Assembly (NCBI RefSeq): GCF_900172225.1
Contig: NZ_FWFO01000001.1
Location: 496,001-560,000 of the forward strand
Reading direction: 5' to 3'
Source: Falsiruegeria litorea R37
GTDB taxonomy: Bacteria > Pseudomonadota > Alphaproteobacteria > Rhodobacterales > Rhodobacteraceae
Length of the DNA stretch: 64,000 bases
Each line of letters opens with the position of its first letter. Within the stretch, counting starts at the first letter, position 1. Below are positions 1,408 through 56,027 of the stretch, one piece after another. The position numbers were made by a program, and so were the translations under genes. The notes beneath the pieces are model-generated. The model ran no database searches. It had not been told where the DNA came from and saw nothing but the letters and a program-made list of their open reading frames with translations.

Positions 1408-1773
1408 ATGTCCCGCGTTAAAGGTGGAACCACGACTCACGCCCGTCACAAGAAGGTCATCAAGGCCGCCAAAGGTTACTATGGCCGCCGCAAGAACACC
1501 TTCAAGGTCGCAACTCAGGCCGTCGACAAGGCGAACCAGTATGCAACTCGCGACCGTAAGCAGCGCAAGCGGAACTTCCGCGCGCTGTGGATCCAGCGCA
1601 TCAACGCCGCCGTCCGTTCGCACGACGAGGCGCTGACATATTCGCGCTTCATCAACGGTCTGAACCTGGCCGGTATCGAAGTGGACCGTAAGGTCCTGGC
1701 CGACCTGGCCGTGCACGAGCCCGACGCGTTCGGTGCCATCGTTGCCAAGGCACAGGCTGCTCTGGCCGCGTAA
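1408..1773 (+). CDS. rplT: 50S ribosomal protein L20
   Basis: Large-subunit protein needed early in 50S assembly; in many bacteria it also represses its own operon by binding mRNA. The 121-residue sequence has the typical MSRVKGG start, the [14 protein letters not shown] helix and the globular end with [20 protein letters not shown]. The start is preceded by GAGGAGATCTGAGAT. It is the second gene of the rpmI-rplT operon and is followed by a rho-independent terminator at 1802-1832. Confidence 0.98.
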
Positions 1774-1832: not shown

Positions 1833-1911
1833 GGTTCTTGGCGTGAGAGTATGGGCGAGGCATCCAGTGGCACGGGGTGCTCCCGCGCCCGAGCAGACCT
1901 GACTTTGTCAG

Positions 1912-2037
1912 CCCCGCGAACGGCCTTGGGCCGAGCGCCTCGCCTACCGGCTCGGCGCGGTCCAGCCCGTGGCAAAGGCTACGGGCCTAACCGCATCGGG
2001 TGCGGCGCAGTGCCATCCGCCGCGCGCAGCGCGGCGG
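1912..2037. other. Chain of hairpins in the rplT-MFS intergenic region
   Basis: The space between the convergent rplT and MFS genes is not protein-coding but is full of short inverted repeats in series. Examples are GCCGAGC/GCTCGGC, GCCCGTGGC/GCTACGGGC (one wobble), CCGCA/TGCGG, and the perfect CCGCCGCGC-GCA-GCGCGGCGG at 2017-2037. The last lies just before the 51-nt conserved element. Such a run of stems suggests a structured 3' RNA or an extragenic palindromic cluster. No function is known to me. Confidence 0.55.
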
Positions 2038-2040
2038 CCC

Positions 2041-2091
2041 GGCCCAACGGGAGGAGATTTTTCGTCAGAAAAATTGACGACGGGCGGGAGC
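2041..2091 (+). repeat. 51-nt structured repeat element, copy A
   Basis: The element reads GGCCCAACGGGAGGAGAT, then a variable hairpin (arms TTTTTC and GAAAAA around GTCA, the first T shared with the left block), then TTGACGACGGGCGGGAGC. The same outer blocks, identical in all 36 bases, occur at 55018-55068 around a different but also paired hairpin. An upstream hairpin (2017-2037) is a second shared architectural feature. It ends 28 bases before the stop of the convergent MFS gene. The left block contains a Shine-Dalgarno-like GGAGGAG without a start codon nearby. Confidence 0.8.
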
Positions 2092-2118: not shown

Positions 2119-3315
2119 CTAGTGAGGCCGTCCTTTGGATGGCGCGAGCGGTTTTTGCGTCACCGCCAAGGCCGCGCCCAACATCAGAAGGGCGGATGCC
2201 GTCAGCAGGCTGTCGCCGATGTCTCCGGTGCTGTCCCCGATCAGTCCCGCGCCGATTGGCCCTACGGTTTGCGACACTGCGAACACCACGGTGAACAGGC
2301 TGATTGTAGCGCCCCAGCTGTCTTGCGGCATGTTCTTGCGGGTGAAATTCGTGATCGCGCCCGGCGCCATAAAGACCGACAATCCAAAGACCACAGCAGA
2401 AATCAGCACCCCTACCGCAGTCGGAAAAAAGATTGGCAGAGCAGAGCCGATCGCGATCCCCGTCAGGATCATGGCCAATGGGACACCATTGGCATACCGC
2501 GCGAAAATGGACCGCCAGACAAAAGGTGACAGGGTTATGCAGGCTCCAAGCAGCACCCAAACGCCTGATATCAGCATGACGCTGTAATCGCGTTCTTTCA
2601 TCCAAAGCGCCAGAAACGTCAGATACACGATGTAGCCCAGACCAAACCCGGCGTAGCCGCAGAACTCCCCCAGCATGCGGCGTGCAGGCACAGGGTGGCG
2701 GGTTTCAGGGCCGGGCGTGGGGACTCGGAGCACCTCGCCTGCCCAGATGCTGAGCGGACAGATCGCAAAACTGATCAGGCCGATTCCGATCCAGCTCCAG
2801 GGCCAGGAGGTGGGGCCCATCCATTCAAGCATCAGGGGGAGCGTTGCGCCGCACAAAATGATGCCAAGACCGCCGCCACCGCCAAAGTAGAAGGCTATCG
2901 ACAACGCGTTGCGCTTTGGGTCGTCCTGAAACAGTGCGGCCGCCAGCGCACCCCCAGCCACAAAGGATCCTGCGCCAAAGACGCCGGCCAGAATACGCCA
3001 CAGGCTTTGCGCCCAAAACGACGGATCAAGCCCGGTGGCAAAGAGACAGATGGCGGTCAGTACAACGCCCGAACTGAAAAGCCGCGAAGCACCGACGCGA
3101 CGGATCAGCAAGGCTGTGAACAGCGACCCAAAGACATATCCCAAAGCGTTTGCGGTGTTGAGCCAACCGGCTTCGGCATAGCTCCACCCCTGTGACGATT
3201 TCATGGCGGGCAGGATCAAGCCATAGGCAAATCGGGCAAATCCATTGGTGACGCACACGCCCAGGGCAAGACCCAAAAGGACCAGCCAAGGCCTTGGCGG
3301 GGTTACGATCTGCAT
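2119..3315 (-). CDS. MFS transporter, YbfB/YjiJ type
   Basis: Inner-membrane secondary transporter of about 398 residues with 12 predicted helices. The start MQIVTPPRPWLVLLGLALG is chosen at 3315, because a longer reading adds a polar stretch without an RBS while AAGGAG lies 12-13 bases before this ATG. The first half carries FARFAYGLILPAM and GWSYAEAGWLNTANALGY, which resemble the YbfB/YjiJ family (MFS_4). The substrate cannot be read from the sequence. It is convergent with rplT across the structured repeat and divergent from the Hint-domain gene. Confidence 0.85.
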   Translation of the reverse strand: MQIVTPPRPWLVLLGLALGVCVTNGFARFAYGLILPAMKSSQGWSYAEAGWLNTANALGYVFGSLFTALLIRRVGASRLFSSGVVLTAICLFATGLDPSFWAQSLWRILAGVFGAGSFVAGGALAAALFQDDPKRNALSIAFYFGGGGGLGIILCGATLPLMLEWMGPTSWPWSWIGIGLISFAICPLSIWAGEVLRVPTPGPETRHPVPARRMLGEFCGYAGFGLGYIVYLTFLALWMKERDYSVMLISGVWVLLGACITLSPFVWRSIFARYANGVPLAMILTGIAIGSALPIFFPTAVGVLISAVVFGLSVFMAPGAITNFTRKNMPQDSWGATISLFTVVFAVSQTVGPIGAGLIGDSTGDIGDSLLTASALLMLGAALAVTQKPLAPSKGRPH

Positions 3316-3481
3316 GTCACACGGCCTCTCCTTACGCGGTTCACGCTGAAACAGGCGTTGATTTGAGGCAAGCGGAACGCTGCGCAACATTGCAAATTTG
3401 ATGCGGGGTTCAAAAATAAACCCTATTTTTGCCAGTTTGCCGAACGATAGTAGGATACAGACGCAATTTTGGTGTGACGCC

Positions 3482-7025: not shown

Positions 7026-8188
7026 GCGCCGATCAATTCACCCACGTCCTTTGGCCTGTCGGGGGCAAGAGACGCATCCTCGGCCAGCCAGTTGGCGCAA
7101 ATCTCTTTCAGGCGATTGATCCGGTTTTCCTTATCCGGGACGATGATTGATTTGAGCTTTTTCTTGACCATCCCGGTCATCAGCCGCCCCATCAATGTGC
7201 CACCCTTGGGGGTGGCAAAGCGGACCTTGACCATCGTGCCATCGCCAACGGACACCAGCTCGTTGGTTTCATACATCGTCAGGCCCATCGGCAGGTTGTA
7301 GCGGCCGGTGACGTATTCACCGGGGCGCCAGTCGATGATTTCAAACGGAAAGATGTCGTCGCCGTGGTGGCAGTGATACATGGTTCCCGGCTCGATCTTG
7401 CCTTTGTTTGCACCCAGCAAATCAACGGCATCGGCCCCCAGCCATTTGGCGCGCATATCGGGCCGGGTGCAGGCTGTAAACGCCGCCGCTGGCGAGACGG
7501 TGACCGGTATGGCCCACTCCTCCATCAACAGCTCTTCGTCGGGTTTGACAAAAACCTGTTCTGACCCGCGCCTGCGTTCCCACGCCTGTTTGAGATCGCG
7601 GACGACATACTCGATCTCTCCGATGTGCTCGATGTCTTCGGTATAAAACTCGTCCTCCGAGAACAGGTCTTTCATGTCCATCTTGCCCAACGCGTCGCAG
7701 GAGATGAGCATGTAGGCGTCCATGCCCGTGCGTTCCTTGACCGTGTTCTTGAGCAGGCGGAAGGCGGTGATGACATCCGTCCCGGCCAGCTCTTGCCGCC
7801 CGCCGGTTTCCTGCACGACACACTCGCCGTGATGCACCACGATTTTTAGCTCCAGCCCATCCACATTGGCGCAGGCCCCGCATCCGCACGAGGTGTTGAT
7901 CTGCATCTTTTCCTTGCTGCGGGCAAAGGCGCAGTAGATCTGTTCGGCAAAGTCGATGATGAACTGTTTGGTCATCACGTCGCTTTCGAAGGCAAAGGCA
8001 AAGACGGCGTCGCCCTGCAGACCTGAAATCGTCAGTGGAGACCGGATCGCGGGCACCAGCGCGCCGAACAATTGTTCAAGGATTCCCTTGGCGTGTGTGA
8101 TCTCTGTTTCTGACATGAATTTCGTGTAGCCGGAGATGTCTGCAATCACAAAGAAGGCCGACTGCGGTCCGGTGTTTTTAGGTGCCAT
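7016..8188 (-). CDS. DUF2652 cyclase-like domain fused to SRPBCC domain
   Basis: A cytoplasmic protein of about 390 residues. The first 200 residues resemble a class III nucleotide cyclase fold (DUF2652): FFVIADISGYTKF with Asp17 and GLQGDAVFAF with Asp60 match the two metal-binding positions. The usual adenine-selecting Lys before the second Asp is Gln, and the downstream Asn is not conserved, so cyclase activity is doubtful. A cysteine pair sits in SCGCGACAN. Residues from about 225 form a SRPBCC/START-like ligand pocket (VSPAAAFTACTRPDMRAKW). The start at 8188 (MAPKNTG) is chosen over a longer reading by its lower-complexity upstream. It lies between pheS and pheT on the opposite strand. 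Confidence 0.8.
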   Translation of the reverse strand: MAPKNTGPQSAFFVIADISGYTKFMSETEITHAKGILEQLFGALVPAIRSPLTISGLQGDAVFAFAFESDVMTKQFIIDFAEQIYCAFARSKEKMQINTSCGCGACANVDGLELKIVVHHGECVVQETGGRQELAGTDVITAFRLLKNTVKERTGMDAYMLISCDALGKMDMKDLFSEDEFYTEDIEHIGEIEYVVRDLKQAWERRRGSEQVFVKPDEELLMEEWAIPVTVSPAAAFTACTRPDMRAKWLGADAVDLLGANKGKIEPGTMYHCHHGDDIFPFEIIDWRPGEYVTGRYNLPMGLTMYETNELVSVGDGTMVKVRFATPKGGTLMGRLMTGMVKKKLKSIIVPDKENRINRLKEICANWLAEDASLAPDRPKDVGELIGAQG

Positions 8189-53605: not shown

Positions 53606-53684
53606 ACCCGCGGCGCGGGGCTGTCCAAACGCGATGTGAATGCACATATCGCAGGAGACAAAAAGAAGCGGACAGGAGATCCCA

Positions 53685-54932
53685 ATGACCGATGTCGGGC
53701 AACGACACGCACCTGTTGGTGCATCAGCTGAGGTTCTGAAGTCATGGCTGTTGCAGCGCGGGCTCGAGGGGGCAACGCAGGAAGATGTCCTGCATGGCTA
53801 TTGCTCGCAGTTGGTGGATCTGGGCATTCCGCTTTATCGTTTGCACGTCGCACAAAGTGCCTTTCATCCGCAATACGGCGGAATCGGCTTCGATTGGCTA
53901 CGAGAAGAGGGGATGAGTAGCGAGGAATACAGCTACTCGGAAACTCCACGCGCCGAATGGCTGCGAAGCCCGCTCTACCATCTGCTCAAAAACGATCTTT
54001 CAGAGTTCCGAGAACGGCTTGTCGACAGCAATGAGGCAAGTCAGTTTCCCATTTTGAACGACTTGCGCGAGCAAGGCGCCACCGATTACTTTGCAGCCGG
54101 TGTCGTACTCGAGGCGCGGGAACAGTCCCAGCCGCTGGATCCGGCGAATGCGCCCGAGGGGGTGCTGCTGTCATGGACCAGCGATGGCGTGGATGGTTTT
54201 CACGACAGCGATCTGGCGGTGATCCGGGCCGCGCAGCCCTATTTGGCCTTGGCGCTGAAAGCAGCGGCCAACCGGCGCGTGGCGGCAGATCTGTTGCAGG
54301 TCTATCTGGGGCGCGACGCGGGGAGGCGGGTGTTATCGGGGGAAATCCAACGTGGCTCGTTGCAGCAGATTGATGCGGTTTTGTGCTATTTCGACTTAAA
54401 GGACTTCACCAGCCTGACCGAACGCACGCCTGGGCCTGAGCTGATCGCGATGCTCAACGATTACTTCGGCCTGGCGGTTGGGGTGATCCAGGGTCACGGC
54501 GGGAACATCCTGAAGTTCATGGGCGACGGTATCCTTGCGATGTTCAACTTGCAAAGCCTGCAAGCCTCGGTCACGGCGGGTTTGGACGCGATGTCCGAGT
54601 TGAGAGACAAGATGGGTGAGAAAAACGCGGACCGTAGCGCGCGTGGAGAAACCACAACCGGTGTCACCTTGGCGATGCACGCCGGTGAGATCCTTTATGG
54701 CAACATCGGAGCCGAAAACCGATTGGATTTCACGGTGATTGGACCGGCGGTGAACCTGACAGTTCGGCTGTCGGGGATGCACCGTTCGGTTGGGCAAAGC
54801 GTTATCCTGTCCGAGCCGATTGTCCATGCCGCAGGAGAAACCGGGCACGATCTGGTCAGCGTCGGGCGTTATATGCTGAGGGGGGTTTCAGAGCCTCAGG
54901 AACTCTACACTATTTACGCTGGCCCGAGCTGA
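53685..54932 (+). CDS. Class III adenylate cyclase
   Basis: Makes cAMP from ATP. The 415-residue soluble protein has an N-terminal sensory-like region (1-200; not identified, perhaps GAF/PAS-like), a linker, and a catalytic domain from about 225. All key residues are present: metal-binding Asp237 (CYFDLKDF) and Asp281 (KFMGDG), adenine-selecting Lys277 and Asp348 (LDFTVIG), and transition-state Asn357 and Arg361 (VNLTVRLSG). It should therefore be active. The N-terminal domain would sense an unknown signal. CAGGAGATCCCA precedes the ATG at 53685. It is convergent with mipZ across copy B of the structured repeat. Confidence 0.92.
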   Translation: MTDVGQRHAPVGASAEVLKSWLLQRGLEGATQEDVLHGYCSQLVDLGIPLYRLHVAQSAFHPQYGGIGFDWLREEGMSSEEYSYSETPRAEWLRSPLYHLLKNDLSEFRERLVDSNEASQFPILNDLREQGATDYFAAGVVLEAREQSQPLDPANAPEGVLLSWTSDGVDGFHDSDLAVIRAAQPYLALALKAAANRRVAADLLQVYLGRDAGRRVLSGEIQRGSLQQIDAVLCYFDLKDFTSLTERTPGPELIAMLNDYFGLAVGVIQGHGGNILKFMGDGILAMFNLQSLQASVTAGLDAMSELRDKMGEKNADRSARGETTTGVTLAMHAGEILYGNIGAENRLDFTVIGPAVNLTVRLSGMHRSVGQSVILSEPIVHAAGETGHDLVSVGRYMLRGVSEPQELYTIYAGPS

Positions 54933-54984
54933 AACCTGGTATCTGCGCGACCTTGCGGTCTTGCGTCCTGCGGACGGCAGGGGG

Positions 54985-55068
54985 CCAGGCTCACGCGGGC
55001 AAAGCCCGCGTGAGCCTGGCCCAACGGGAGGAGATGTCCCGCAAGGGGCATTGACGACGGGCGGGAGC
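54985..55068 (+). repeat. Structured repeat element, copy B with upstream hairpin
   Basis: A perfect 16-bp hairpin (CCAGGCTCACGCGGGC / GCCCGCGTGAGCCTGG, loop AAA, 54985-55019) runs into the 51-nt element at 55018-55068. The outer blocks GGCCCAACGGGAGGAGAT and TTGACGACGGGCGGGAGC are identical to copy A at 2041-2091. The central hairpin is TGTCCC-GCAA-GGGGCA, a different sequence that still pairs at six positions (one G-T). It fills the gap between the convergent cyclase and mipZ genes, 13 bases from the mipZ stop. Confidence 0.8.
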
Positions 55069-55081
55069 GCCCCGGGATTTA

Positions 55082-55891
55082 TCAGAAATCGATTTCGACG
55101 CCGGGCAGGTTGAGCGCCTTCATCATGTCGCGCAATTCCTGACGCGCCGCGATGTTCGAGATGTTGAGTTGTTTGACGCCGATGTCTTTCAGGTCCAGCA
55201 AGGTCAAGCCGCGCGGGAACAGCTCGCGGAAAATGACCCGTTCGGAAAAACCCGGTGCAATGCGGAACCCGATGCGGTTTGACAGCATCTCGATCGCGCG
55301 TTGCATCTTTTCCTTGTTGACCATGCGCTGCGTACCAACGCGATTGCGCACGACAACCCAGTCGATGGGTTTCAAACCCGCCTGCGCGCGCAATTGCCGC
55401 GCGTTCCAGACCATTTCCGAATAGACCGACGGACCCAGGATCTTTTCGCCTTGCGGGTCGATCCGCGCCAGAAGGTCAAAGTCGACAAAGCTGTCGTTGA
55501 GCGGGGTGATCAGCGTATCCGCGAGCGAATGCGCCACCTGGCTCAGTCGAGTGTGCGAACCGGGGCAGTCAATCAGGATGAAATCGCTGTCCGCCTCAAG
55601 TTGCGACACAGCCGCCGAGAGACGGTGGTCATAGATGTTTTCGCCCGGCTTCAGCGAGGCAGGGTCGATCTCGGGGAGGTCGTGGGTGTGCGGGGTCGGC
55701 AGCTCAAGGCCCGCCTTGCTCAGGAAGCTGGTGCGGTTCTCGGAATACCGACCCAGGCTACGTTGGCGCAGGTCCAGGTCCAGCGTGTTGACCTTGAACC
55801 CCATCCGCGCCAGCGCGGTCGCCACATGCATCGAGACAGTGGATTTCCCCGCACCGCCCTTTTCGTTTCCGACGACAATGATATGCGCCAT
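55082..55891 (-). CDS. mipZ: Division-plane positioning ATPase MipZ (ParA family)
   Basis: A 269-residue ParA-type ATPase. The deviant Walker A is NEKGGAGKSTVSMHVA near the N-terminus, and DSDFILIDCPGSHTRLSQVAH is the Walker B region. Later motifs include FVDFDLLARIDPQG and the C-terminal REL-FPRGLTLLDL. The pattern is typical of alphaproteobacterial MipZ, which forms a gradient from the poles and keeps FtsZ at mid-cell. Start MAHIIVVG at 55891. A stand-alone gene here with 136 bases to the helicase gene upstream. Confidence 0.92.
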   Translation of the reverse strand: MAHIIVVGNEKGGAGKSTVSMHVATALARMGFKVNTLDLDLRQRSLGRYSENRTSFLSKAGLELPTPHTHDLPEIDPASLKPGENIYDHRLSAAVSQLEADSDFILIDCPGSHTRLSQVAHSLADTLITPLNDSFVDFDLLARIDPQGEKILGPSVYSEMVWNARQLRAQAGLKPIDWVVVRNRVGTQRMVNKEKMQRAIEMLSNRIGFRIAPGFSERVIFRELFPRGLTLLDLKDIGVKQLNISNIAARQELRDMMKALNLPGVEIDF

Positions 55892-56027
55892 CTGCCCCAA
55901 GTCCTTTGTTTCGCCCAAGCCGTCTTGCGCGATTTGTTGCCACTATATGTTGAGACGCACACCATGAAAAGTGTTCTTGGGTGTTGCCTACTCAATCTAT
56001 GGGAGGATCGAGCAGGCTTTCGAGGTG

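Follow-up and report, generated by a model that had tools for sequence, protein, structure and literature searches.

A candidate new roseobacter family of structured intergenic repeats that may act at mRNA 3' ends

Two copies of the repeat and their neighbours

The window analysed was a stretch of 64,000 nt from the genome of Falsiruegeria litorea R37 (G000, 4.69 Mb; C1:496001-560000), in which two copies of a repeat, A and B, lie beside the genes listed below. All positions are those of the window.

1408..1773, + strand: rplT, the gene upstream of copy A; a terminator-like site of its own lies at 1801-1827
1880..2091, + strand: copy A, full-length and of type I, running from CTCCCG to GGGAGC, with 5' CTCCCGC..CCC facing 3' GGGC..GGGAG and closed in an unconstrained ViennaRNA fold
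1880..1890, + strand: 5' strand of the predicted closing helix P0, CTCCCGCGCCC (ViennaRNA fold; counts of the 5' partner against a control)
1899..1911, + strand: 5' hairpin Pa, CTGAC-TTT-GTCAG (fold; recurrent at orthologous and paralogous copies)
1926..1932, + strand: 5' strand of the outer P1 stem, TTGGGCC, predicted partner of 2041-2047 (fold)
2017..2037, + strand: 9-bp hairpin, the 3'-most branch of P1 (sequence and fold)
2041..2047, + strand: GGCCCAA, predicted 3' strand of P1 and first part of block 1 (copy comparison, fold)
2050..2055, + strand: GGAGGA, 5' strand of the double tandem-G.A extension of P2 (covariation of the 2053/2078 position across genera)
2056..2075, + strand: P2 hairpin, 8 bp with a 4-base G..A loop (covariation test)
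2076..2081, + strand: GACGAC, 3' strand of the double tandem-G.A extension (covariation)
2082..2090, + strand: GGGCGGGAG, 3' strand of the predicted closing helix P0 (copy comparison, fold)
2119..3390, - strand: MFS transporter gene, with 28 nt between its stop codon and copy A
53640..54932, + strand: adenylate/guanylate cyclase-domain gene, ending before copy B
54950..55068, + strand: copy B, a type II element with an approximate 5' limit, a different 5' domain and no 5' CTCCCG (comparison, fold)
54982..55022, + strand: P1 of copy B, 19 bp with an AAA loop (fold)
55018..55068, + strand: core of copy B, comprising block 1, P2 and block 2 (sequence, covariance model)
55082..55918, - strand: mipZ-like gene, ending 14 nt after copy B

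A sequence-only reading of this DNA had described a 51-nt unit at 2041-2091 and 55018-55068, and both positions were borne out. The same is true of the central 6-bp helices with 4-base loops (2058-2063/2068-2073 and 55035-55040/55045-55050, the latter with one T.G pair) and of the hairpins said to precede the units: that of copy A (2017-2037) has 9 bp, and that of copy B has at least 16, the predicted fold giving it 19 bp (54982-55022). With up to three mismatches allowed, block 1 and block 2 each matched twice in the window, against shuffle means of 0.06 and 0.04. A covariance-model search of the window returned the same two copies and otherwise chance-level matches; a third match of a loose pattern, at position 7282, was spurious on reading and was discarded, having no support in the model search.

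Copy A is homologous to other copies across about 220 nt. The P1 domain of several type I copies in this genome contains a large multi-branched insert (1933-2040 in the window), which is missing from the orthologous copies of the same-genus genome G073. No intrinsic terminator, searched for as a G+C-rich hairpin followed by a T run, was found within either window element, and a simple scan found no promoter-like site at either copy. Two terminator-like sites, one per strand, overlap at 1801-1827 beside rplT, and none was found around copy B.

Copy number and spread

The search of the genome and of the Rhodobacteraceae that the sequence-only reading had proposed revealed a high-copy family. Across the whole own genome, block 1 (up to three mismatches) gave 120 matches against five for the reversed pattern, and a covariance model built from 70 copies (R1) found 125 places at E up to 0.001; the same model found 127 places in G073. 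The element was recognised by pattern at 120 of the 121 own-genome loci examined. With a further model (R2), 40 of 295 sampled family genomes matched, the own genome included. In a class-wide sample of 289 genomes, at least four of which belong to the family (kinship is listed for all but 268), the own genome was the sole match. As the filters were strict and about 20 candidates were scored per genome, these counts of spread are minimum values; in 30 selected family genomes that were counted more fully, copies ranged from 0 to 127. Carriers among the exact-pattern matches listed were Tropicibacter, Falsiruegeria, Ruegeria, Leisingera, Tropicimonas, Tritonibacter and Shimia, and two plasmid records of Tritonibacter mobilis hold a relative of the element. 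Viral contigs contained no exact match to the element, and no relative of the MFS protein encoded beside copy A was found in them.

Covariation of P2 and its tandem-G.A extension

The core is laid out as the 3' end of P1, GGCCCAACGGGAGGAG, P2 and GACGACGGGCGGGAG, and the 51-nt unit corresponds to the 3' third of the repeat. P2 is an 8-bp helix in which, among 55 distinct own-genome sequences, 95.4% of cells pair and two-sided changes occur at six of the eight pairs. When P2 and a proposed GCCC/GGGC helix were tested together on these sequences, 71 two-sided cells were counted (shuffle mean 26.7) and the covariation score was 0.391 (shuffles 0.229), both values exceeding every one of 500 shuffles. 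Pairs with a two-sided change numbered six, against 4.3 in shuffles; this lay above 475 of the 500, so that the excess is not clear. A second alignment (A2), a random draw of 120 of the 202 distinct sequences from other records (19 rows being Tropicibacter-named), gave 202 two-sided cells against 47.0 in shuffles and a score of 0.584 against 0.209, which was reached by none of 500 shuffles and compares with at most 0.215 for slid versions; here the number of changed pairs (6 of 7, shuffles 5.6) showed no excess. The earlier claim of a selected, compensated structure is therefore upheld by the two-sided cells and the covariation score, but not by the count of changed pairs, which is not clearly above shuffles.

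Copies with a non-pairing centre, which had been named as evidence that would count against that claim, did not appear: all 70 own-genome copies read can form the central helix, with eight or nine uninterrupted pairs in 58 of them and only four in L009, L013, L039 and L065. The suggestion that GCCC and GGGC close the unit had to be abandoned, as three of the four pairs are broken (eight cells in total) with no two-sided change among the 55 distinct sequences, leaving the broken cells uncompensated. Nor are the two blocks the free linkers they had been taken for; instead, the tandem-G.A extension of P2 runs through them, and in folded copies they also supply strands of P1 and the closing helix. 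Positions G1, G2, C3, C5, A6 and A7 of block 1 are invariant in the 70 own-genome copies.

In the extension, GGAGGAG lies opposite GACGAC in the series G-C, G.A, A.G, N-N', G.A, A.G. This was followed in 321 parsed copies, comprising 70 from the own genome, 31 from the sister genome G073 and 220 from other records, the last including 46 Tropicibacter-named copies of which 21 are probably from the same strain as G073. Among the 202 distinct other-record sequences, one of which (from L093) is likely a spurious parse and is included in the counts, the N-N' position (2053/2078 in copy A) was G-C in 171, U-A in 15, A-U in eight, C-G in one, G-U in two, U-G in one and unpaired in four. It thus pairs in 198 of 202, and in 164 of 168 once Tropicibacter-named records are removed, all 24 two-sided changes remaining. 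The outer G.A tandem is conserved in 210 of the 220 other-record copies; the inner is looser (G.A in 153 and A.G in 137 of 202), with G-C or G-U at one position in 35. P2 and its tandem-G.A extension are shown by covariation.

In L035, L038, L088, L089 and similar copies, A15 is changed to C together with G39 to A (numbering of alignment A1), and this joint change may put a non-canonical pair in place of the sheared A.G. Two other readings of block 1 were set aside. Its G tracts vary (for example GGGATGAG) and are compensated in block 2, so that pairing explains them better than a G-quadruplex; a coding reading, from the ATG after GGAGGAG, fails because the inner lengths differ by single bases and no reading frame is maintained.

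The full-length element

Comparison of orthologous intergenic regions and of paralogs revealed that many copies are longer than the 51-nt unit. Of the 311 copies whose flank was long enough, 123 had a 5' CTCCCG..CC partner of the 3' GGGAG, whereas a control stretch further upstream gave 11 of 304. The partner lay 90 to 318 nt from the 3' end of the element, with peaks at 128, about 185 and 205-240 nt. In the predicted fold of full-length copies, GGGCGGGAG stands opposite 5' CTCCCGC..CCC and GGCCC pairs upstream to form P1. Unconstrained ViennaRNA minimum-free-energy folds of the + strand of copy A, L243 and L246 gave the same four-way junction, its arms being P0, Pa, P1 (with TTGGGCC/GGCCCAA as its closing stem) and P2, in which the G.A spacing was reproduced. 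The fold of copy B is without P0, and type II elements are without the 5' repeat.

For the outer extension of P0, 495 pairs were counted; permutation gave a mean of 473 and reached 506, so that no covariation is claimed there. Of 319 copies, 148 had a simple P1 hairpin ending in GGCCC, compared with 48 when unrelated upstream sequence was used. Given the permutation result for P0 and the presence of the P1 hairpin in only those 148 copies, P0, the outer P1 stem and the four-way junction are presented as predictions. The sequence upstream of the element in L098 contains long homopolymer runs of C and of G that probably arose in assembly.

The folding strand and the gene context

Within P2, G.T outnumbered A.C by 94 to 2 in the own genome, 30 to 0 in G073 and 143 to 28 in other records. 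For inner pairs, with outer pairs and duplicates removed, the ratios were 12:0, 7:0 and 38:5, the last becoming 27:4 without Tropicibacter-named records. This excess identifies the folding strand of P2 as the one originally read. P1, however, showed no strand bias (9 G.T, 17 A.C). In 13 copies with both neighbouring genes on the opposite strand, 16 G.T and no A.C were counted and the G.A tandem was present in all 13; as the + fold is equally kept there, local transcription alone is insufficient as an explanation, which is awkward for a pure mRNA role. Flanking GC skew showed no bias in replication orientation, although a runs test on contig C1 detected some clustering of element orientation (p = 0.012). 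The statement that the unit is an RNA structure and not a simple repeat stood in part: it is structured, but it is also a high-copy interspersed repeat, and the folded strand may be RNA or single-stranded DNA.

Gene context was read from an in-house, simple codon-based caller and is approximate. The 70 own-genome copies comprised 43 between convergent genes, 13 in -E- and nine in +E+ contexts, one divergent and four overlapping a gene call, which are read as over-extended starts; the baseline of neighbour pairs in the window was 12 convergent, 36 tandem and 11 divergent. Block 2 ended at most 60 nt from the stop codon of the opposite-strand gene in 45 of the 56 copies of class +E- or -E-. The elements are therefore located at gene 3' ends, mostly of convergent pairs. 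Depletion of intrinsic terminators next to them was not clear, either in convergent regions (5 of 42 and 10 of 42 beside elements, against 6 of 26 without an element) or in tandem regions (2 of 9 and 3 of 14, against 16 of 51).

Evolution at fixed sites

When the 54 parsed G073 matches were compared with the element sites of the own genome, 43 were found at such a site in the same orientation and two in the opposite one; two fell at sites first classed as empty, two matched by one flank and five were unmatched. On checking the two 'empty' sites, one (L354) was found to hold a copy with a degenerate block and the other query was spurious. At orthologous sites the blocks are nearly intact and the flanks about 70-87% identical. 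Among 17 clean ortholog pairs, no P2 pair was identical, L224/L012 being one base apart and L235/L030 two, and 13 of the 17 G073 elements were nearer to a paralog in the same genome than to their G000 ortholog, the other four being mostly type II loci. These comparisons show a rewriting of elements at mostly inherited positions, for which gene conversion or re-copying would be the mechanism.

Beyond the two genomes, 148 other-record copies yielded 55 element pairs with both flanks common to own or G073 sites; 31 of these pairs involve Tropicibacter-named records, and 18 copies outside them share both flanks. Among 72 copies from ten other genera, five shared both flanks and six shared one with the sites then compared, so that flank sharing declines with distance.

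L239 and L236 (element near position 2000), two copies of G073 for which G000 has no counterpart, lie at synteny breaks, the flanks of L239 mapping to different G000 contigs. Because synteny with G000 was broken at both, these two tested copies provided no clean empty site. L237 is also absent from the G000 sites, but both of its flanks are common to a Falsiruegeria copy and it need not be new. Opposite element orientations were seen between the same gene pair in L207 (Aliiruegeria haliotis) versus L058/L251 and in L173 (a Rhodobacteraceae MAG) versus L041/L246, which suggests recurrent insertion or inversion at preferred sites.

Interpretation

There is good support for regarding these sequences as one family of high-copy intergenic repeats with a structure under selection. 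The preferred interpretation, tentatively held and given somewhat less than an even chance, is of a new roseobacter family whose members are co-transcribed 3'-end structures. The + strand would fold into P1 and into a P2 extended through the two tandem G.A motifs, full-length copies adding P0 and Pa to give the four-way junction. Co-transcribed elements might then shield mRNA 3' ends, set their limits or serve as a binding site for a partner, while sequence exchange or re-copying among copies within a genome would leave most elements homogenised by lineage with the fold constant. Counting against a 3'-end role are the orientation-independent + fold, the unbiased P1, the lack of clear terminator depletion and the restriction to 40 of 295 genomes.

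A non-autonomous mobile repeat of the MITE, BOX or REP-like kind is a close competitor, at slightly lower odds. Its folded single strand, DNA or RNA, would be the substrate of a mobilising enzyme, with copies surviving best at gene 3' ends and re-copying into or over older ones. One-strand folding of P2 regardless of gene orientation, the patchy spread (1 to 127 copies per carrier genome) and the terminal inverted repeat of types I/III are all in keeping with mobility, as are the 13 of 17 G073 elements closer to a same-genome paralog and the copies without a counterpart at the G000 sites examined, the two that were checked lying at synteny breaks. However, 43 of 54 parsed G073 matches occupy G000 element sites in the same orientation with blocks hardly decayed, and the flanks of L237 are both shared with the Falsiruegeria copy. 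Furthermore, a search confined to the Y1 transposase family found no member in G000, G073 or G200, no target-site duplication was detected, and type II lacks the 5' repeat. A 3'-end structure accounts for position and conservation; a mobile single-stranded intermediate accounts better for orientation-independent folding and patchiness. The 3'-end interpretation is placed slightly ahead, since the blocks persist at orthologous sites, and inert insertions would be expected to have decayed there.

An element acting at the DNA level between convergent genes, such as a cruciform or a site for a nucleoid protein or gyrase, in the manner of a BIME, is improbable. The preference for convergent genes and the long palindromic P1 without strand bias would suit it, but the G.T bias of P2 and the tandem-G.A covariation indicate a single folded strand, and the flanking GC skew is unbiased despite the clustering in the runs test on C1 (p = 0.012). 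Still less credit is given to a Rho-dependent or bidirectional terminator, in which the opposite strand would present C-rich stretches soon after the stop codon. The short distance to the right-hand stop codon and the absence of a terminator-like site at copy B are compatible with such a role. A rut site, however, needs less than the base-exact conservation and + strand pairing found here; elements also occur in +E+ contexts, and at copy A the neighbouring rplT is already provided with a terminator-like site. A trans-acting small RNA encoded by dispersed genes and carrying Shine-Dalgarno-like GGGAGGAG, a motif that does lie within block 1, is the least probable of the alternatives, given that the simple scan found no promoter-like site at either window copy, that 5' flanks differ among copies and that GGGAGGAG is part of a helix.

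Small bacterial repeats are often dismissed as parasitic for lack of a test. With about 125 copies per genome, mostly at fixed positions in two species, and a fast, compensated turnover of hairpins, selection on structure can here be separated from copying, and the element offers a concrete motif for a binding-partner search. If 3'-end structures they are, the repeats would constitute a genome-wide 3'-end module without a family in the Rfam searches made. A bolder proposal starts from a new RNA fold, a four-way junction with a covarying pair flanked by two tandem G.A motifs in its P2 arm. This fold would act as a common 3'-end module at more than 100 loci of a single bacterium, its hairpins rewritten per species by inter-locus copying while the fold stays fixed; as it stands, the proposal is rather unlikely.

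Comparison with known systems

The impression that no named motif fits was sustained, as no Rfam (release 15) family reached its gathering cut-off over the element in the window or at five loci. With E up to 5, at eight loci, only sub-threshold matches covered elements, including several microRNA models and SorX, on the minus strand of L020 (22.2 bits against a cut-off of 46.6). The loci searched also contain a cobalamin riboswitch above its gathering score (L249:3625-3837, -) and a sub-threshold match to the Caulobacter sRNA CC2171 (L019:677-873, +; 38.2 bits, cut-off 75).

Cuckoo RNAs have two CCUCCUCCC loops and a terminator. The likeness to the Cuckoo/CcsR RNAs of Rhodobacteraceae consists of CTCCTCCC on the opposite strand of the element; unlike them, the element folds on the GGGAGGAG strand and has about 125 dispersed copies. 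A resemblance of GCCCAAC/GTTGGGC to integron attC sites was rejected by reading alone, since the boxes come in the reverse order. In the literature searched, the two blocks were not found in print in any of five spellings, the one 15-mer match coming from an unrelated virus paper, and the relevant passages of PMC8632094 and PMC4809877 do not describe the element.

The element shows pair covariation beyond column composition (a score reached by none of 500 shuffles), as a structured RNA would. For terminal inverted repeats of the MITE kind, the relevant counts are those of the 5' partner (123 of 311 copies, 11 of 304 controls), which type II lacks; the longest direct repeat between flanks averaged 3.96, the same as with swapped flanks (122 copies; element ends approximate), giving no sign of target-site duplication. 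REP/BIME sequences with a RAYT (Y1) transposase are high-copy extragenic palindromes, according to the parts of PMC2817692 that deal with them. Y1 matches were obtained in three of 13 genomes searched and not in G000, G073 or G200, and identity with a RAYT-REP system was therefore rejected; unlike REP/BIME with RAYT, the own genome has no Y1 transposase by this search. In the corresponding passages of PMC2573895, the RIME and AB/C palindromes of Sinorhizobium belong to dozens of intergenic rhizobial repeats of unknown function with a common sequence and secondary structure. Set against these by description and not by sequence, the roseobacter element was confined to its own genome among the 289 class genomes.

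With many short, structured, intergenic copies, the element resembles the small interspersed repeats of the BOX, RIME and ERIC kind. BOX of Streptococcus pneumoniae (with RUP and SPRITE) is presented in the relevant sections of PMC3049150 as small, with extensive secondary structure and slow transposition, and is judged there to be parasitic yet likely to affect co-transcribed genes. Like BOX, the roseobacter element is a small interspersed structured repeat; unlike BOX, as far as that description allows comparison, it belongs to a different lineage and has a preference for gene 3' ends, a double tandem-G.A helix and lineage-wise rewriting at positions that stay fixed.
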